The notes under the pieces: generated by a model
What the model was told of the DNA's origin: nothing
Databases searched by the model: none
The model's input: the letters and a program-made list of their open reading frames with translations, nothing else
In this document: in pieces, positions 14,583-27,783 of the stretch
Layout of the letters: each line of letters begins with the position of its first letter
Position numbering within the stretch: the first letter of the stretch is position 1
Made by a program: the position numbers and the translations under genes
DNA from: a virus
Virus record (IMG/VR): IMGVR_UViG_3300037010_004498
Coordinates: 1 to 28,312 of that record
Length of the DNA: 28,312 nt
Strand: one strand, 5' to 3'

Positions 14583-15434
14583 TTACGCCGCGACGCGATG
14601 GCCAGCGGTGGCGCCGAGGTAGGCGGAGCCGGGGATCATCACCCCAGGCTTCATCACCAAGAGCGAGCTCTGGCAGCGGCAGTGCGCGTGGACGGAACCA
14701 GGGAGTAAGCCGCCATTGAACTTGAGGCCGACGACAGCCCAGCGGCCGTTCATCCCGGCGCACACGGCGCACACCTTCCTGTCGAGCGTCGCGTCCCAGA
14801 CCTTGACCAGCAGGACCAGCCATTTGGCGTCGGCGTGCTGCTCGGCGATCTGGTCGGCGCGCGCGGCGTGCTCCTCGGAGTAGGCCTGCGGCACCTCCGT
14901 CGCGGCGAGGCGGCGGAGGCGGTGATCTTGTTGCGCGGTCGCCGTGCCGAGCGCCGTGGCCAGCGAGGGGCGCTCGGTTGAGCTGGCCCACTTGCTGAGC
15001 GCGGCTGCTACGCCTGCGCGCCAGGCAGCCACGTAGCTGTCGGCGGCCGCTGCAGCACGGTGCTCGTCGTCAGCGCGGTCGGCGGGGCCGGGCGTGGCGA
15101 TAGCGACCTTGAGCGTCTGAGCGGCCGCGGCGAGCTCGGCGGTGAGCTGCTTGCCAGCGTCAGCGCGCGCGCCGTGGCGGCCGGCGAGGATGACGCGGGC
15201 CACGTCGGCGCGCAGCCGCTCGCTCGCGGAGCGAAGAGCCATGAGGGCGCGGAGGCGGGCCCGCTGTGGGTCCTGCTCGTGTTGTGCGGCCTGGACGACG
15301 TCGTCGAGCGCACGCTGCGCGGCGGCCTGGAGGTCGCCGAGCGCCATGGCCTCGGTCGCCAGCATCGCCCGTTGGCCTTGGCGCGCGAGGCGGCGCTGGG
15401 CGGGCGAGGGGGTGAGGCGAAGGGGCGGAGTCAC
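14583..15434 (-). CDS. Minor head/head morphogenesis protein, SPP1 gp7 / Mu F-type, 283 aa
   Basis: GTG at 15434 overlaps the previous stop (GTGA). Residues 1-175 are helical and Ala/Arg-rich. The C-terminal part carries the signature of this family: ATEVPQAYSEEHAARA (about 178-193), KVWDATLDRKVCAVCAGMNG (211-230), then a W-x-V-V-G segment and PGSVHAHCRCQSSLL. The C222-x2-C225 pair with H249, H251, C252 and C254 is a probable zinc site. Proteins of this type enter the procapsid with the portal and aid DNA packaging or ejection. Its place right after portal and the HExxH gene is standard. Confidence 0.85.
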   Translation of the reverse strand: MTPPLRLTPSPAQRRLARQGQRAMLATEAMALGDLQAAAQRALDDVVQAAQHEQDPQRARLRALMALRSASERLRADVARVILAGRHGARADAGKQLTAELAAAAQTLKVAIATPGPADRADDEHRAAAAADSYVAAWRAGVAAALSKWASSTERPSLATALGTATAQQDHRLRRLAATEVPQAYSEEHAARADQIAEQHADAKWLVLLVKVWDATLDRKVCAVCAGMNGRWAVVGLKFNGGLLPGSVHAHCRCQSSLLVMKPGVMIPGSAYLGATAGHRVAA

Positions 15435-15814
15435 GTCAGCGGGGCGTACTTCGCGGCGTATAGCGCCTTCGCGTACGCCTCCACGATCTGCTCCTCGTGC
15501 ACGTTGCTTGGCGCGTCGGCTGCGATGTTGAGGCGCGCCATCTGGACGTGCCCCATCTCGTGCAAGAACACCTGTTCGACGGGGCGTTTGAACGAGCTAT
15601 CCGGCCAGCTCGCCGGCTCGTGGATCTGGATCAGCGCCCGCTTGCTCTTGAGCCACACCGTGCACAGCCCAGCGCTATCGAGCCAGGGCACGTACCTGAC
15701 GATGATTTCCCAGTCGCCGAGCTTCATCCGCGGCTGCCACTCCGTGAGAAGCGCGTCGAGGTCGGGGCGATCGGGCTGCGTGGCCGGGGCGGTGCGGATC
15801 TTCTTGGCGGTCAT
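15431..15814 (-). CDS. Small zincin-like metallopeptidase (HExxH) protein, 127 aa
   Basis: ATG 15814 overlaps the portal stop (ATGA). The protein has a beta-strand N-terminal half (DWEIIVRYVPWLDSAGLCTV, with IQIHEP) and a helix with HEMGH at residues 85-89. A downstream helix containing EEQIVEAYA (107-115) could give a third metal ligand or the gluzincin Glu. This is the minimal layout of small zincin-fold phage and bacterial proteins. Whether it is active, and on what, is unknown. Its place between portal and minor head protein suggests head maturation, but the fold is also found in non-maturation proteins. Confidence 0.7.
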   Translation of the reverse strand: MTAKKIRTAPATQPDRPDLDALLTEWQPRMKLGDWEIIVRYVPWLDSAGLCTVWLKSKRALIQIHEPASWPDSSFKRPVEQVFLHEMGHVQMARLNIAADAPSNVHEEQIVEAYAKALYAAKYAPLT

Positions 15815-17538
15815 GTCGGCTCCTTGGTGGCCACGTCGGTGGGCTCGCGCTGGCTGCCCGGCGGCTCGTCGACGTTGTCCTCGTCAGGTACCGTCGGCAG
15901 CTTGCCGTCGTCCTCGTCGGGGATGGCCGCGGCGATCTCCTTGCTCACCTGCGCGCGCGTCGCCGGGTCCATGCCCGGCTGCAGCTTGAGCGCGAGCGAG
16001 ATGGTCTGTTCGACGCGCCACGTCCGCGAGGGGATCTCGATGGCGCTGAGCTGCAACGCCTCCTCGATCAGCGCCGCGCGGTCCACGTCGCCCTCGAAGG
16101 CGTCGAGGCCGTGCACCGTCCAGGCGACGTCCTCGTTGCGGGCGCCGGCGATCACCTCGTAGATGCGCCGGGCGCCGTCGCGAAAGATGGCGCCAAGGGC
16201 CATGAGGACCGTGGTGAAGTCGGCGCGGTCGATCGCCTTGCTGGCCCCGCTGCGCCCGACGGCGTTCGCGGTGCTGGAGATGCTGGCGGCCATGCGGCCC
16301 GACACGCGGTGGATCTCGTCCACCAAGCCCTCGAGCTGCTTGTCGACGATCGTGAAGGCCTCGGTGGGTGGGGCTGCGAAGTCGAGCGTGTCCTTGTCGC
16401 CGAGGACGACGTAGCCCTGCGCGGTGTAGCGCGCGACGGGGTCATCGCCGCGGCTCGGGTCCTGCGCGCGCTCGGCGGGCATCGCCTCGTGGACGCCGCC
16501 GATCTCGGGGCCCAGCTTAACGACCGGAATGACCAGCAAGCTGCGCTGTTGCGCGGCCAGCAGGGCACTTCGGCGCTGCCAGTGCTCCTTGTTGAGCGGC
16601 CCGATGACGTTGCCGAGCCAGAGGGCGTCGGGGATGGTGATCTCGACGATCGGGATCTCGCAGAACCTTGTGGCGCCCTCGTCGACCTTGGCGACCGGGT
16701 CCTCGTCGCGGAGCGGCTTGCCGTCGACCTGCGGCGGCGTGCGGTAGACCGCCCACCGGACGACACCGTCGTCGCCGCGCGACCAGATCTTGAACTCCTC
16801 GACCGGCGCCGGTCTGCTCTCCGTCGGCGAAGGACGACGAGCGACGATACGGCGAAGGACCGCCCACGCGAACCGGCCCACCTCGAACTCGACCGAGCCA
16901 CCGCCGTCGAGCTCCACGCGGCGGCGGACCACCTCGTCGTGCTCCCAGTCGATGAGCTCTTCGGGCTCGAGGAGGAAGGCGTAGGGCCTGGCCAAGCCGA
17001 GCCGGTCGCTGTCCGCCTTGGTGACGACGTCGAAACCGGCGGGGGCCGCGGGGAAGTCGATGCCGACGAGGGCCTTGCCCTTCACCAGCCCAGAATTGGC
17101 GACGCGCCGCAGAAGCTCGACGAACGAGCCGCCGCGGAGGTCCGCGTTGCGGGCGAAGTCCTCGTAGACGCCGGGGTCGGGGAGCTCGCCGGGCGTGTTC
17201 GGATCGTCAGCGTCGCCGGCGGGCGTGATGCTCACCGGCTGCGCGAACAGCGAGGCGCTGTAGACGCCCGCGATCTGGCCGAAGTAGCCGATGTACGCCG
17301 CGAGGCTGAGGCGTTCTTTGTGGCGCGCCTGGCTCTCGCCGACGGCCTTGGGGAGGAACTGCGCGGCGGCCGCCTGAATGGCGTAGCCCCCGCGGTGGAG
17401 GAGGTCGAGCTCGCGCCAGAGCGCCGGGGTATACCCGCGCTCGTTGGCGCCCGCGGGGTGTTCGGCGCTGAGCAGGCCGTAAGGCAGCGACGCCGGGAGG
17501 CCGGAGGAGGGCGTGGCGTCGGAGGTGGACGTGTTCAT
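15811..17538 (-). CDS. Portal protein, DUF4055-like, 575 aa
   Basis: Start ATG 17538 overlaps the terminase stop (ATGA); the frame open upstream is inside the terminase gene. Residues 50-110 follow the DUF4055 portal pattern: QFLPKAVGESQARHKERL followed by YFGQIAGVYSASLFAQPVS. Later segments fit a portal: EFVELLRRVANSGLVKGKAL, DFPAAPAGF, RPYAFLLEPEELIDWEHDEV and a long helix around KEHWQRRSALLAAQQRSLLV. The C-terminus is acidic. Portals are dodecamers at one capsid vertex through which DNA enters. The 575-residue length fits this family, and the gene lies next to the terminase as expected. Confidence 0.85.
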   Translation of the reverse strand: MNTSTSDATPSSGLPASLPYGLLSAEHPAGANERGYTPALWRELDLLHRGGYAIQAAAAQFLPKAVGESQARHKERLSLAAYIGYFGQIAGVYSASLFAQPVSITPAGDADDPNTPGELPDPGVYEDFARNADLRGGSFVELLRRVANSGLVKGKALVGIDFPAAPAGFDVVTKADSDRLGLARPYAFLLEPEELIDWEHDEVVRRRVELDGGGSVEFEVGRFAWAVLRRIVARRPSPTESRPAPVEEFKIWSRGDDGVVRWAVYRTPPQVDGKPLRDEDPVAKVDEGATRFCEIPIVEITIPDALWLGNVIGPLNKEHWQRRSALLAAQQRSLLVIPVVKLGPEIGGVHEAMPAERAQDPSRGDDPVARYTAQGYVVLGDKDTLDFAAPPTEAFTIVDKQLEGLVDEIHRVSGRMAASISSTANAVGRSGASKAIDRADFTTVLMALGAIFRDGARRIYEVIAGARNEDVAWTVHGLDAFEGDVDRAALIEEALQLSAIEIPSRTWRVEQTISLALKLQPGMDPATRAQVSKEIAAAIPDEDDGKLPTVPDEDNVDEPPGSQREPTDVATKEPT

Positions 17539-18983
17539 GCGGGCGGGAGGACGCGCGAGCGATAGACGGCGGGCTGCGCCTTCCCGAACCTGTTGAAGAT
17601 CGGGTAGCGCACGCTGTCCATCGCGTGATTGTTCTTGTCGACGATGTCGTCGAGGAAGCGGTCCGTGTCGTTCGGGTCGCGCCTCCTGCGGTAGTTCACG
17701 AACTCCCAGCGCGTCTTCGCGCATGAGGGGTCGATGTAGAGCCGGGCGATCTGGCGCTCGTCGCTGTCGTCGCGCGGGTCCTCGTTCGGCACCTTGCGGA
17801 TCGCGAGGAGCTCGCACACCGCTGAGACGCCGTCTTCGATGGCGTTGTCGACGTCCGACCAGGCGACGCCAGCCCCGCGAGCTATCGCGGTGAGGCGGGC
17901 CGGCTGCGAGGGGTCGCCGTACCAGCGTTGCAGCGCGGAGCTGTATTTGGCGCGGAGGCGCTTGGCCTGCGCGACCCACCAGCTCTCGAGTTGGTGCGAC
18001 TCGTAGACCTCCTCGAGGAGGTAGACGGTGGCGTCGGCGCCGGCTCCGGCGACGCCCATCACGAGCATCACGCCGGCGTCCTCCCAGCCGTGGTCCACGC
18101 CGAAGAGGAATTCGTTGAACTTGGTGCCCGGCGGCGCCTTCTTGACGTGGACCTTCTCGCTGTAGGCTGGGTAAACCAGCCCCTCGGCAGAGTCAAAGTT
18201 GCACTCCCACTCACGCTCGTACACGGCGAGCTGGCCGGCGGCGACAAGGCGGGCGCGCTCGCGAGCGACGTGCGCAGCGTCGACGTTCTTGGGGGCGTCG
18301 CGCCAGGTGCTGTGGAAGCTGTACGTGCGGCGCAGCTCGTCGAGCCGGATGTTCTCCGCGGGGTCGAGCGAGAATTCCCCCGACGCGTTCGGCGTGAGCA
18401 GGCGGGCGGCATCGCCGTCGAGCCCGCGCCTGTGCTCGCGATGGAGCAGGCCGTAGCGGCCACGCCGAGGCGTGCCGCCGAGGAGCAGAATCTTGAGCGA
18501 CCAGTTCTCGGAGAACCACGGGCCGACGATGGCGTCGAGGACCGCGGGGTCGATGTCGTCGGCCTCGTCGACGGTGACGATGTCGCAGCGGATGCCGCGA
18601 GCTGCGTTGGCGTGCCGCGCGCCGAACCACTGGATCGTCGAGCCGCCGGGGAAGGCGAACGAGAACGAGGTGTGGTCGACCTTGGCGCCGAGGAAGCGCC
18701 AGGTGGCGTAGGGGCCTTCCAGCTCCTCGAGGACCGCGTTGCGGTGGACGTCTTTGCAGGACTTGAACGTCGGCTGCAGGTGAACGATGCGGACGCCGCG
18801 GATCGAGCCGCCGTCCATCGTCGGTCGCTCTCGACCATCCCAGCGGGCGATCGGGAGGTACCAGCCGGCGTTGCGCTGGAACCAGCTCTTGCCGACGCCG
18901 CGGCCCCACGGAAGCGTGAGGCTACGGCGTGGAACGAGGACTTGGTGCGCCCGTGCCTGGGGAAGGTTGAGGTGGAGATCCAT
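17535..18983 (-). CDS. Terminase large subunit, 482 aa
   Basis: This is the DNA-packaging motor. Visible motifs are Walker A GRGVGKS (27-33), Walker B IVTVDE (135-140), a coupling motif around GGTP (169-172), and an RNase H-like nuclease with D297 (GVDHGWEDAG), D357 (YGDPSQPARL) and the C-terminal acidic motif DIVDKNNHAMDSVRY (D448 and D456). All the main motifs of a TerL are present. Start ATG 18983 lies 62 bases inside the small subunit gene, a longer overlap than elsewhere; no later start keeps Walker A. The stop overlaps the portal start. Substrate is the phage concatemer; it needs the small subunit for DNA recognition. Confidence 0.95.
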   Translation of the reverse strand: MDLHLNLPQARAHQVLVPRRSLTLPWGRGVGKSWFQRNAGWYLPIARWDGRERPTMDGGSIRGVRIVHLQPTFKSCKDVHRNAVLEELEGPYATWRFLGAKVDHTSFSFAFPGGSTIQWFGARHANAARGIRCDIVTVDEADDIDPAVLDAIVGPWFSENWSLKILLLGGTPRRGRYGLLHREHRRGLDGDAARLLTPNASGEFSLDPAENIRLDELRRTYSFHSTWRDAPKNVDAAHVARERARLVAAGQLAVYEREWECNFDSAEGLVYPAYSEKVHVKKAPPGTKFNEFLFGVDHGWEDAGVMLVMGVAGAGADATVYLLEEVYESHQLESWWVAQAKRLRAKYSSALQRWYGDPSQPARLTAIARGAGVAWSDVDNAIEDGVSAVCELLAIRKVPNEDPRDDSDERQIARLYIDPSCAKTRWEFVNYRRRRDPNDTDRFLDDIVDKNNHAMDSVRYPIFNRFGKAQPAVYRSRVLPPA

Positions 18984-19713
18984 CGTGGGCGGGGACGCCC
19001 TCGGGGTAGTGGACGGTGATCTCGCGCTCGTTCGTGGCGAGCGCTGGGCCGCGCACCGGCGCCGGCGCGAACACCGCCATGCTCTTGGCGAGCAGCGCGA
19101 TGCTATTGAGCGCCTTGGGGTCGCCCTCGCGGGTGCGGCCGTCGATGACCTTGGTGCGCGCGAAGTCGAGGCCGAGGCCGAGCGCCTCGTGGAGTGCGGC
19201 CATCACCGTGGCCTGGACGGCGCCGGGGTCGACCTGGCGCTGGACAGCGCGGCTGGCTTCGCAGGCGTCGTGCTCGACGGTGCCGGGGTGGATACCCCAC
19301 AGTTCGGCGAGCTCGCCGCCTGTTTGGCCGCTGACCCACTCGAGGCGGGCCATCAGGTTGATGATGTGGACGACGCGCTGTTCTTTCGTCGGCGCGCCGG
19401 GCGGCAGCTCGCCGATGCGGCGCTTGCGCGGGGGCGGCGTGGACAGCGGGACAGCGTCGTCCTGTCCAAGGACGTCCGGGTCCGTGGACGCGTGGACGCT
19501 GGCTGTTGTCCCGCTGGACGCCTGGACGGTGTCCTTGGCCCCGATGCCGAGGCAGCGGAGCCGGTGCGTGCCGAGGCCGGACCGCGAGAACCCGGTGGGC
19601 CACCGCGCGCAGATGACGTTGAGGCTGTCGCCGCTGGCCAGCGCCGCGTCGATGTCGGCTGCGGCGGTGTGGCGGCCGACGGCGCAGCGGCAGGGACGGG
19701 TGGGGTGCGGCAT
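18922..19713 (-). CDS. Terminase small subunit, 263 aa
   Basis: The gene directly precedes and overlaps the large subunit. The N-terminal 55 residues have Cys-x-Cys (PCRCAVGRHTAAADIDAALA), then ASGDSLNVICARWPTGFSRS and a HRLRCLG end. This is the common phage 'C... ID-x-A-L-x-x-G' helix-turn-helix-like unit with possible metal ligands. A second helix-turn-helix is seen near GELAELWGIHPGTVEHDACE. The middle is Thr/Ser/Pro-rich. Small terminase subunits bind the packaging start site as rings. Start ATG 19713 is just seven bases after a long hairpin, with no clear ribosome site. Confidence 0.8.
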   Translation of the reverse strand: MPHPTRPCRCAVGRHTAAADIDAALASGDSLNVICARWPTGFSRSGLGTHRLRCLGIGAKDTVQASSGTTASVHASTDPDVLGQDDAVPLSTPPPRKRRIGELPPGAPTKEQRVVHIINLMARLEWVSGQTGGELAELWGIHPGTVEHDACEASRAVQRQVDPGAVQATVMAALHEALGLGLDFARTKVIDGRTREGDPKALNSIALLAKSMAVFAPAPVRGPALATNEREITVHYPEGVPAHDGSPPQPSPGTGAPSPRSTP

Positions 19714-19719
19714 GGCGGG

Positions 19720-19761
19720 CGCCTGCGCGCCGGTGGGCCATGACCCACCGGCGCGCAGGCG
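19720..19761 (-). repeat. Perfect 18-bp-stem hairpin before terminase genes
   Basis: Arms cgcctgcgcgccggtggg (19720-19737) and its exact complement (19744-19761) are separated by six bases. It lies between the 71-residue gene (stop at 19771) and the terminase start (19713). No uracil run follows. It may be a terminator or attenuator separating early and late genes, a translation block on the terminase start, or a recognition site for packaging. Confidence 0.7.
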
Positions 19762-19770
19762 GCGAGCGCG

Positions 19771-19986
19771 TCAGCTCGCGGGCTCGATGGTGAGCATGTA
19801 GCTCTTGCCCGGCTCGAACTTGCCGCGGGCGGCGGGATTGGAGATGGTGATCTGGAGCTGGCCGCCGGGGGTGGCGCTCGACCAGCTTTCGTTGCCCAGC
19901 CCCACGGCGGCAGCGAACTCGACTCGATCGGAGCCGCCGTAGTTGGTGACCGAGGTGCACGTGAACTTCGCGATGATCTGGGACAT
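19771..19986 (-). CDS. Small conserved phage protein, 71 aa
   Basis: ATG 19986 gives MSQIIAKFTCTSVTNYGGSD; the longer frame back to 20025 runs into the JAB gene and is rejected. The protein is a small beta domain. Its ending, ITISNPAARGKFEPGKSYML, matches a phage family I recognise by the pattern 'TISNP-A-x-G-x-FEPGK-x-Y'. The family has no established function that I know of. It is likely soluble. Eight bases upstream lies the TAG that I take as the true end of the JAB gene. Confidence 0.8.
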   Translation of the reverse strand: MSQIIAKFTCTSVTNYGGSDRVEFAAAVGLGNESWSSATPGGQLQITISNPAARGKFEPGKSYMLTIEPAS

Positions 19987-19993
19987 GGATGCT

Positions 19994-20411
19994 CTATCCT
20001 CGCGTCCGCTTGCCGGCGACGCCACGGGCCGCGCTCAGCACGGTGAAAATCAGGCCCGCTCAGCGTGTGGGCGCGCATCGTCGCGTGGTCGGTCGGGCTC
20101 GCGATGGGCGGCGATTCGCCCGGGTGGGTGTGCCAGTCGCCGAGATGATGGCGCGCGGGCCAGATCGCGGCGAAGTACTCGGCGAGGCCGTCGGCGCCGA
20201 GGACCAGCGCGCGCGGACCGTGAACGGTGTCCGCGGGCGGGCCGAGGACCTCGGTCACCACAGCGAGCTTGTCGCCGTCGTAGTAGCCGACGAGCGCGCC
20301 ACCTGTCTCCAGGGGATGAGCGGCGGCAGCGAAGATGTGGAGCGCATCGACGGCGGCGGGATCGAGGCGAACGGCGAAGCGGTTGGTGGGCTCGGCGAAG
20401 AGCGCGCTCAC
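19994..20411 (-). CDS. JAB/JAMM (MPN) metallopeptidase-like protein, apparent +1 frameshift near the end
   Basis: GTG 20411 overlaps the preceding stop (GTGA). Residues 1-122 form a JAB domain: E35 (PLETGGALVGY), then DWHTHPGESPPIASPTD with H94, H96 and D108. The spacing after the second His is eight residues rather than the usual seven before Ser. The frame then stays open as Arg/Pro/Ser-rich nonsense through the next two genes. If one T of a TTTT run (20046-20049) is skipped, the protein reads DFTVLSAARGVAGKRTRG and stops at TAG 19994-19996, eight bases before the next ATG. The total span is not a multiple of three. JAB domains cleave isopeptide or C-terminal bonds; here the substrate is unknown. 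Confidence 0.75.
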
Positions 20412-20842
20412 GCCTGGGCCCCCTGCAGCTCGGCGCGCCGCAGCTTGCGCAGCTCGGGGGCGTTGAGGTGGCGTCCGCCAGGGATCGCCCTGCGGCTGCG
20501 CGCCACGTGTGCCACGGCCACGTTCTTCGCGGCCCGCGACTCGCCTTCCCACTCGACCGTCATGCCGACGGCCCGCAGGCTGGCGACCCAGGTCCGCGTC
20601 GAGCCGTCCGCGTCGGGGCCGGCGGGCACGTGGACCGGCGGGGCGACGTAGTCGTTGCCCCGGGCGTAGCGCAGGCCGGGCGCCTGCTCGAAGGCCACGA
20701 AGGCCTCCTTGGCCACCGCGAGCCACGTGGCGCGGACGACCGGGCCGGCGTCGCGCCAGCTCACGGTGGGGCTGGACGCGGCGTAGAGGCGGCGCGCGAG
20801 CGCGGACTCCTGCTCGGCGACGGTGGGCGGGGCGGGGGGCAT
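20408..20842 (-). CDS. Hypothetical protein with a Trp-rich helical pattern, 144 aa
   Basis: Start ATG 20842 lies five bases after the RyR-gene stop. The first half is helical with VSWRDAGPVVRATWLAVAKE, a pattern ('W... W-x-x-V/A') seen in small phage proteins of unknown function. A conserved-looking charged section (YARGNDYVAPPVHVPAG) follows, and the C-terminus is basic (HVARSRRAIPGGRHLNA). It overlaps the JAB start and may share its role. DNA or RNA contact is possible from the basic end (inference). Confidence 0.65.
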   Translation of the reverse strand: MPPAPPTVAEQESALARRLYAASSPTVSWRDAGPVVRATWLAVAKEAFVAFEQAPGLRYARGNDYVAPPVHVPAGPDADGSTRTWVASLRAVGMTVEWEGESRAAKNVAVAHVARSRRAIPGGRHLNAPELRKLRRAELQGAQA

Positions 20843-20847
20843 GGAGA

Positions 20848-21201
20848 TCAGGACAGCGCGGCGGCCATGGCGCGAACGGTCGCGAGGAAGAGCGTGTCCT
20901 TCGCGCGCTGCGCCGTCGGCAGCTCGGCGTAGGGCACGAGGCAGGGGTGCGTCTTCACCTCGGGGGCCTTCACGGCGCCGAACGTCCAGCCGGCGGCGAT
21001 CTTCTCCGTCGTCCAGCTCGTGTGGCTCTGCTCAGGCGTGTTGCCGGCGAGAGCGCCGCGGACGCCGTTGCGCAGGCTCGCGCGGTGCTCGGGAGCGGCG
21101 ATGTCCCACGCGGGCTCGACGTACTGGCCGCGAGCGGCGCAGTAGACGCGGTTGATCTCGTGGGCGGCCTCGGCGCAGGCGTCGATGATGGCAGGGGTCA
21201 T
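20848..21201 (-). CDS. RyR-domain protein, 117 aa
   Basis: The product matches the RyR repeat almost end to end: MTPAIIDACAEAAHEINRVY, then WDIAAPEHRASLRNGV, HTSWTTEKIAAGWTFGAVKA, and the signature ending HPCLVPYAELPTAQRAKDTL. RyR domains occur in ryanodine receptors and as single-domain proteins in bacteria and phages. In prokaryotes they are suspected to bind small nucleotide-like ligands, a proposal rather than established fact here. The start at ATG 21201 begins exactly at the domain; a longer frame to 21306 has no support. Neighbours are the 105-residue gene and a Trp-pattern gene. Confidence 0.9.
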   Translation of the reverse strand: MTPAIIDACAEAAHEINRVYCAARGQYVEPAWDIAAPEHRASLRNGVRGALAGNTPEQSHTSWTTEKIAAGWTFGAVKAPEVKTHPCLVPYAELPTAQRAKDTLFLATVRAMAAALS

Positions 21202-25719: not shown

Positions 25720-27783
25720 TCACGCGCCTGGGCCGCCGAGCTGCTCCAGCGCCTCGCGCTCGCGCACCATCACGGCCCGCTCGTTGAGGACGGCCCCGCG
25801 AACGCTCGCCGCCCAGCGGAGCATCGTCATGGCGGTGGCTGGGGGCGCGGTGCGGCCGCTCATGTACGTGCGCAGCGTCTCGCGGTTGAGGCTCGCGGCC
25901 GCGGCGGCTCCGCGCTGCCCGCCGAGCTGGGCCACGAGGTCGCGCAGCTCCTGGAGCTCGGCGCTGACGACCTCCGGTGCGGCCTTGGCCTGGTTTTTCG
26001 GGCGGCCCTTCTCCGGCTCGTCGCGCACGTGGCGACCCTCCCACCCGCGCGGGACGACGCGGCCAACGTGGAGCTGGCGGCCCGGCTTTTGCCGGTGGAT
26101 GGTCCGGAGCCGGCCGTGGGCCTGCTCGAGCTCGGCGCCGGCGTACGCGACGGCGCGCTCGCTCTCCAGCTTGGCCAGCGCCTGGAGATCGTGGGCGTTG
26201 CCGTGGAGGAACACGGCCTCGAGCTTTACGTGGGCGACGTCGATCCACGGGTCGCCGAGCGTGATGGTCGCGTCGAAGTCCGCCCAGACGTCGAGGCCGC
26301 GCGTGGCGCCGAAGTGGGCGTAGCCGAGCGGTGTGGCGGCGAGCGGCGCGAGGAGCGGGCTCAGCTGGGCGATGGCGGCGGCGAGCGCCTCGGGCTCCTG
26401 CTTGATGTCGTGGGCCCAGAGGTGGGCGATCTCCAGGCGGCGCACCGCGGTGGTGGCGGGAGCCGCGGCCTCGAGGGCGAAGCGGAAGGGGCGCCGGGTG
26501 ACGAAGAGCACGCCGTCGCCGGCAGTGGGGCTCTCCAGCGCCCAGCTCACGGCCCACTCGACGGCGCGGAGCGCGGCGGGGCTCAGGCAGAATTTTTTGC
26601 CGTCGAAGATGCTCGAGGCGGGGCCGGCGGCGCGCAGGTGCATGAGGCGCCTCGAAATGGGCGCGCCGTCGGGGGCCTTGATCTCGAAGTAGATCGGCGG
26701 GTCGGCGAGCAACTTGCAGAGGATCGGGTAGTGCAGGTCAGCGTCCGCGGCGAGGAGGATGCCGGTGCCCTGAAAATGCACGATGACGCGCTCGAACCAC
26801 TCCAAAATGCCGAAGGTGCGCAGCACGGGCACGCCGGCGCGGAGCTCGACGGTGGCGTTGAGCATTTTGCGGCGGAGGGCGTCGCCGAGGACACGCGCCA
26901 TCTGCATCGCGGCACCAAGGGGAGCGCCGCGGTGGCTCACCTGGCGGAGCAGGATCAGCTCTTGTGATTTGAGGATCGCCTCGATGCGGCGGCCGGCGTA
27001 GAGGTCCTCGAGCTGCTCGAGCATCTCTTGGGGCACGAGCTCGGCGAGGACGAAGAGCGTGCCGGGCGGCGGCGACGTGCGGAGCCAGGCGGCGAGGTGC
27101 TTCAGGATGGGCGCGAGGCCGACGCCGAAAGCGGTCTCGAAGGGCGGGTGGGTGCGCTCGTCGAGCTGGGCGGCTTGCTCGAGCTCGTCGGCGGTGAAGG
27201 CGTGCGTGTCGAGGACCGTGGGCGGAGGATCGTCGACGCCGAGGAGACCTGTCCCGGCGTGGCCGGCGAGCTGCGGGCCCATCGACTGCGGGCCGATGGC
27301 AAATCTTGAGGCGGGATCGCCGTCGACACCATCGCTCTTGTACGTGTCGCAGGAGGCACGGTGTTCGCATGGCGCGCCGCGGCGCTTGTCCGAGCCACCG
27401 TCGCAGAGGGTGCGTCGGGCCGACTGGCCGGCTGCGGAGAACAGCGTGAGGCTCTGCGGCCAGCGGCAGCCGCGCCCGGGGGCGTAGGGGGCGGAGGTCA
27501 TGCCGAAGCGGCGCTGGACGTCGCCGCCGCGGGCGCGGACCTGGTGGGTTTTCTCGACGGCGAGCGCGCTCGTGGGGAGGAGCAGAGCCGACTTCGAGCC
27601 TGCGGGCGCACGCGTCGTGGTGGCGTTGGGGCTGGGCTGCTTTTGCGCGCGCTCGAGGGCGAGGTTGCAGAACTCGACGGTTTTGCCGGCGCCGGGTGGA
27701 ATCTTGCCGATCGCCCAGCCCTCACGACAGGCGCGCAGGCGCGCGGCGATCTGGTCGGAGACGCTGGGGGCAGGGGCTGTCAC
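25720..27783 (-). CDS. Superfamily 2 helicase-like protein with C-terminal HTH, 687 aa
   Basis: Residues 29-35 are PPGAGKT, a Walker A motif, and motif Ia follows (ALLLPTSALAVEKTH). A four-cysteine cluster (C106, C127, C139, C145) resembles those in helicase/primase proteins of mobile elements and could bind zinc or Fe-S. The position of a DExx motif has GVDDPPP (183-189), with Asp in place of the usual Glu. Motif V-like HFGATRGLDVW and LGDPW are at 490-513. Motif VI-like QAHGRLRTIH lies at 554-563, with Q554, G557, R558 and R560. Residues 617-660 form an XRE-like helix-turn-helix (AAAASLNRETLRTYMSGRTA). Probable role: phage DNA replication or repair. Start ATG 27783 is nine bases after the nuclease gene. 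Confidence 0.8.
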   Translation of the reverse strand: MTAPAPSVSDQIAARLRACREGWAIGKIPPGAGKTVEFCNLALERAQKQPSPNATTTRAPAGSKSALLLPTSALAVEKTHQVRARGGDVQRRFGMTSAPYAPGRGCRWPQSLTLFSAAGQSARRTLCDGGSDKRRGAPCEHRASCDTYKSDGVDGDPASRFAIGPQSMGPQLAGHAGTGLLGVDDPPPTVLDTHAFTADELEQAAQLDERTHPPFETAFGVGLAPILKHLAAWLRTSPPPGTLFVLAELVPQEMLEQLEDLYAGRRIEAILKSQELILLRQVSHRGAPLGAAMQMARVLGDALRRKMLNATVELRAGVPVLRTFGILEWFERVIVHFQGTGILLAADADLHYPILCKLLADPPIYFEIKAPDGAPISRRLMHLRAAGPASSIFDGKKFCLSPAALRAVEWAVSWALESPTAGDGVLFVTRRPFRFALEAAAPATTAVRRLEIAHLWAHDIKQEPEALAAAIAQLSPLLAPLAATPLGYAHFGATRGLDVWADFDATITLGDPWIDVAHVKLEAVFLHGNAHDLQALAKLESERAVAYAGAELEQAHGRLRTIHRQKPGRQLHVGRVVPRGWEGRHVRDEPEKGRPKNQAKAAPEVVSAELQELRDLVAQLGGQRGAAAAASLNRETLRTYMSGRTAPPATAMTMLRWAASVRGAVLNERAVMVREREALEQLGGPGA

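Follow-up and report, generated by a model that had tools for sequence, protein, structure and literature searches.

The window, a 28,312-base linear IMG/VR virus record of 70% G+C, carries a JAB/JAMM-type gene with an intact catalytic core, and its reading frame is probably broken just past that core by an ordinary small insertion or deletion. We propose that a stand-alone Cap3/Rpn11-like JAMM metallo-isopeptidase gene heads the packaging module of a myophage, and that a small lesion would have broken its frame immediately after the catalytic core, either as a real recent mutation in the phage or as an error in the metagenome contig, the two being about equally likely. As assembled, the product would be a JAMM core followed by a junk tail. 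A frame-broken gene, the most likely case here, is a true but ordinary observation; the gene context is moderately interesting.

The JAMM core and its genomic setting

Genes for a sheath, tape measure, baseplate hub, SU10-type capsid, scaffold, portal, and large terminase mark the window as contractile-tailed phage DNA, and nearly all of its coding signal lies on the minus strand. In the order of transcription, the region runs through an RyR-domain gene, a 144-residue gene, the JAB gene, a 71-residue gene, a putative small terminase (TerS), the large terminase (TerL), and the portal. The features are as follows.

20848..21201, minus strand: gene for an RyR-domain protein, second upstream from JAB (PF02026, 1.7e-12)
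20408..20842, minus strand: upstream gene, 144 aa, with a stop codon that overlaps the GTG start of JAB (GTGA)
20043..20411, minus strand: intact JAMM/JAB core, GTG start, zero-frame codons 1-123 (PF14464, alignment, Foldseek, codon score)
19771..19986, minus strand: next gene, 71-aa phage protein (phrog_6978, 2.2e-7)
18922..19713, minus strand: putative small terminase, overlapping TerL (resembles genes that directly precede TerL in related contigs)
17535..18983, minus strand: large terminase (phrog_2, 5e-26)
15811..17565, minus strand: portal (phrog_145, 5e-26)

A previous sequence-only reading had named the gene a JAB/JAMM peptidase with its JAMM residues in place, and both statements hold. 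The Prok-JAB family (PF14464) matches residues 20-115 at 36.6 bits (cut-off 25; E 4.5e-9). Residues E35, G38, G42, G91, W93, H94, H96, S105, and D108 are all kept, filling every column that is invariant among 68 homologues, and the JAMM set E35/H94/H96/S105/D108 is therefore intact. Codons 1-115 score +101 bits, and the coding signal remains strong until codon ~119. The gene failed a test for the complete JAB fold, the last strands after the SxxD motif being missing in both the zero and the +1 frames. We therefore claim for the gene an intact JAMM core and not a full, functional enzyme. Its predicted activity would be that of a zinc enzyme cutting ubiquitin-like or CD-NTase conjugates off proteins.

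The JAB GTG overlaps the TGA that ends the preceding gene (20842..20408), which suggests that the translation of the two may be coupled; homologue searches with the 144-residue upstream protein returned none. The 71-residue protein (19986..19771) has homologues in 8 phage records, 4 of which match from residue 4 onward, and its conserved start (ATG 19986) sets a bound on the end of the JAB gene. Proteins of this phrog_6978 type occupy unrelated positions in diverse phages (lysis, tail, and genome end). Elsewhere on the minus strand, positions 25720-27783 encode a 687-residue protein with a strong coding signal, a sub-threshold DEAD-helicase match only, and no PHROG, and positions 14583-15434, downstream of the portal, give a weak Mu-F-like match under the Pfam cut-off.

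The frame break and the +1 tail

Three further features describe the end of the JAB gene.

20046..20066, minus strand: most plausible break interval, from the +1-frame TGA to the TTTT run at 20049-20046 (sequence, codon scores, frameshift scan)
19994..20045, minus strand: putative +1-frame C-terminal tail, closed by TAG (codon usage, weak family match, low pLDDT)
19353..20045, minus strand: zero-frame continuation, Arg/Pro-rich, out-of-frame noise (stop position, pLDDT, non-coding codon usage)

The TTT at 20048-20046 is JAB codon 122. Past it, the zero frame has no stop for 690 nt; the first one, at 19355-19353, closes an ORF of 352 codons counted from the GTG, which crosses the 71-residue gene and enters the putative TerS gene. 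The -1 frame stops immediately. The sequence-only reading had placed a frame break after residue 122, with Arg/Pro-rich noise running on into the terminase gene, and this description is confirmed by codon usage: after the break, the zero frame scores -4.9 bits (non-coding) and the +1 frame +3.2 bits, a preference of ~8 bits for the +1 tail. With one base skipped, the protein ends in ...SGPDFTVLSAARGVAGKRTRG at a TAG (19996-19994), and the +1-frame end of the gene reads ...FTVLSAARGVAGKRTRG. This TAG, which the same reading had placed near the next start codon, lies seven bases before ATG 19986, and the gene spacing with the +1 tail is normal. A TAG in some other frame within ~18 codons is in itself unremarkable.

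The position of the break is confined to an interval. One base can be skipped anywhere between the +1-frame TGA (about 20065) and the T run with hardly any change to the resulting end, and in the frameshift scan skips placed anywhere from GGGCC to TTTT differ by at most 2 bits. Dropping one T of the TTTT run, as had been proposed, is thus a possible event but one of many equivalent ones. Two codons at the break are rare in this phage (TTT, 1.4 per thousand; GAT, 5.8 per thousand), and phage codon counts make GGC-CTG-ATT-TTC ~10 times likelier than GGG-CCT-GAT-TTC, which favors a slip in GGGCC over one in the T run. On the other hand, A/T runs of at least 4 occur in just 1.8% of 19-nt stretches, which mildly favors the T run. 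These cues conflict, and we therefore name no single base.

We infer that the gene originally ended in the +1 frame, and the restored tail is a weakly supported JAB C-terminus. Its hydrophobic FTVLSA stands where the PLMLILG strand of the homologues is expected. In the strand profile it scores -0.65 versus at least 6.5 in true homologues. The family HMM, run over all shift variants, lost homology at residue 114 whichever tail was attached and did not discriminate among them. The best forward-skip score was reached by 31/400 and 20/400 null tails (5-8%), rising to 9-15% when backward shifts were allowed. An apparent significance of the tail from a short-loop homologue profile (2/200 shuffles) was rejected, as the fairer null gave 5-15%. 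The last JAB strand is absent from the tail, 30 residues follow D108 versus at least 33 in every intact homologue, and AlphaFold assigns the tail a pLDDT around 50, then 32, with no confident strand. The earlier description of a sensible restored C-terminus is accordingly upheld in codon usage and left borderline in family match. Because the tail is not significantly JAB-like, lacks the last strand, and is shorter after D108 than in any intact homologue, a simple single-base change may not account for everything.

Comparison with homologues by alignment, which the sequence-only reading had suggested, showed that nearly all homologues lack the break and that the restored end is not significantly family-like. 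An unbroken single frame was found in 111 of 113 homologues, the closest relative having only ~42% identity. The two exceptions, from a Rubrobacteraceae MAG (L128) and a Nocardioides genome (L150), show clear homology that continues in another frame. Applied to these two, the same scan gained 18.5 bits and 39 bits, respectively, versus 2.1 in the window, and it has the power to find true shifted tails. Both are cellular JAB homologues, and their frames break close to the catalytic motif or a short way past it (L128:6147 onward and L150:6193 onward). No homologue above ~42% identity was found in phages, plasmids, or IMG/VR and GTDB contigs, no other IMG/VR contig matched a DNA pattern spanning the break with the T-run length left free, and the JAB gene was absent from TerL-related contigs in which it was sought.

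Explanations for the break

A sequencing error or an inactivating mutation, both raised by the sequence-only reading, remains the best class of explanation, with the break isolated and nearly all homologues unshifted. The remaining minus-strand genes tile cleanly, with no second break in the window, which marks the event as an isolated one. If the lesion is real, it would be recent, since the JAMM core shows no other decay. The alternative that deserves the most weight, although we consider it unlikely, is that the gene is naturally truncated or rearranged at its C terminus, a larger deletion having taken the last strand and the +1 TAG being coincidental. Family homology stops at residue 114, ahead of the supposed shift, the restored tail scores near chance and yields no confident strand in AlphaFold, and the distance from D108 to the next gene is only ~33 codons, the homologue median being 53 residues. 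Against truncation stand the coding-like codon usage of the +1 tail (+3.2 bits) and the FTVLSA segment at the expected strand position.

The same reading had also allowed for programmed frameshifting, in which tRNA-Phe on the rare UUU would slip to UUC and yield a 138-residue JAB protein. The genes prfB and antizyme are programmed +1 frameshift genes, and the JAB gene resembles them in its +1 frame and slip-prone UUU-C; unlike them, it lacks a stop or stall codon, shows no conservation, and has no functional zero-frame product. UUU-C is a plausible P-site slip at a codon rare in the phage, a +1 shift exchanges CAC (17.7 per thousand) in the A site for the more frequent ACC (29.7), and the site passes PRFect's minimal criteria for a forward shift (PMC10885494). 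However, PRFect ranks sites close to the zero-frame stop as more probable (PMC10885494), and here that stop is 690 nt off. The A-site codon CAC is neither a stop nor rare, leaving no stalling codon, and there is no stable structure, the RNA around the site being less stable than its shuffles (z = +1.6). Without a shift, translation would yield junk, the frame is unshifted in all but two of the homologues (the nearest at ~42% identity), and the T-run stretch, with run length free, is unmatched in other IMG/VR contigs. Programmed shifting is thus very improbable. We give even less credence to the reading of the long zero-frame ORF (352 aa) as a real protein. It is open over all 352 codons, but after the break its codon usage is non-coding, its sequence is low-complexity and Arg/Pro-rich, it overlaps two real genes, and AlphaFold returns a pLDDT of <50 from residue 122 on. 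Such openness is expected, because at 70% GC only about 1.9% of random codons are stops, and chance frames of this length are normal.

Stand-alone JAB genes in phages and comparison with Cap3

As such, the broken frame is nothing unusual and may be an artifact; of broader significance is the recurrence, beside phage packaging genes, of Cap3-like JAMM genes that lack conjugation partners. Among the loci fetched, 13 of Corallococcus type have a JAB gene followed downstream by a portal homologous to that of the window, with no E1/E2 detected.

L056, L058, L059, L061, L063, L065, L066: Cap3-like JAB and DUF4055-type portal, Corallococcus-type proviruses
L067, L069, L071, L073, L074, L103: Cap3-like JAB and DUF4055-type portal, Corallococcus-type proviruses, continued

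The gene order in L073 is terminase, JAB, portal. In three other phage types (L045, L052, and L060), a stand-alone JAB lies near terminase, portal, or connector genes, with Mu-F genes beside it in L045 and L052 and a protease in L060. The JAB genes of the Corallococcus proviruses (L073, L065, and L103, placed between TerL and portal) and of these three head modules are like that of the window in adjoining packaging genes, with no E1/E2 found. They are unlike it in their intact frames, complete last strand, and different position relative to TerL. A literature search found no paper on a packaging-module JAB.

Cellular JAB relatives nearly all adjoin ThiF/E2 genes, and together with the recurrence of stand-alone JABs in phage packaging modules this suggests that Cap3-like deconjugases have repeatedly been taken up by phages. 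A counter-defence role for the phage JABs is a reasonable guess by analogy, and alternatively they may act in head assembly. The fuller proposal, that stand-alone Cap3-like JAMMs in the terminase-portal modules of several unrelated phages would strip conjugated CD-NTase or ubiquitin-like tags as counter-defence and that the window copy has lost or is losing its C terminus, is offered tentatively and is rather less likely to be correct than not, by a wide measure. The recurrence of these genes makes it testable whether phages turn deconjugating enzymes on CBASS-like or ubiquitin-like defences or use them in capsid assembly.

Cap3, the JAMM isopeptidase of CBASS, frees CD-NTase that has been conjugated (PMC10097602) and removes conjugated cGAS (PMC10097602). 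The window JAB failed the Cap3 NCBIfam equivalog test (21.7 bits versus a cut-off of 200) and also the CBASS Cap3 neighbor test for E1/E2 (Cap2) and CD-NTase, its flanks being RyR, the 144-residue gene, TerS, TerL, and portal; a tblastn search of the window with four E1/E2 proteins from homologues gave no match. Its top NCBIfam match is NF058523, the JAB end of a Cap2-Cap3 fusion (2.1e-20, residues 7-116). Compared with that fusion, which belongs to an anti-phage 6A-MBL system, the window has the JAB part only, without the E1/E2 portion (72.9 of 320 bits). The top Foldseek PDB match of the JAB core is Cap3 in complex with CD-NTase (9ild_A, E 2.7e-7). Unlike Cap3, the window JAB has a broken C terminus, but the two have in common the JAMM fold and the WHTHP and SxxD motifs, and the nearest sequences to the window JAB are Cap3-like JABs beside ThiF/E2 genes.
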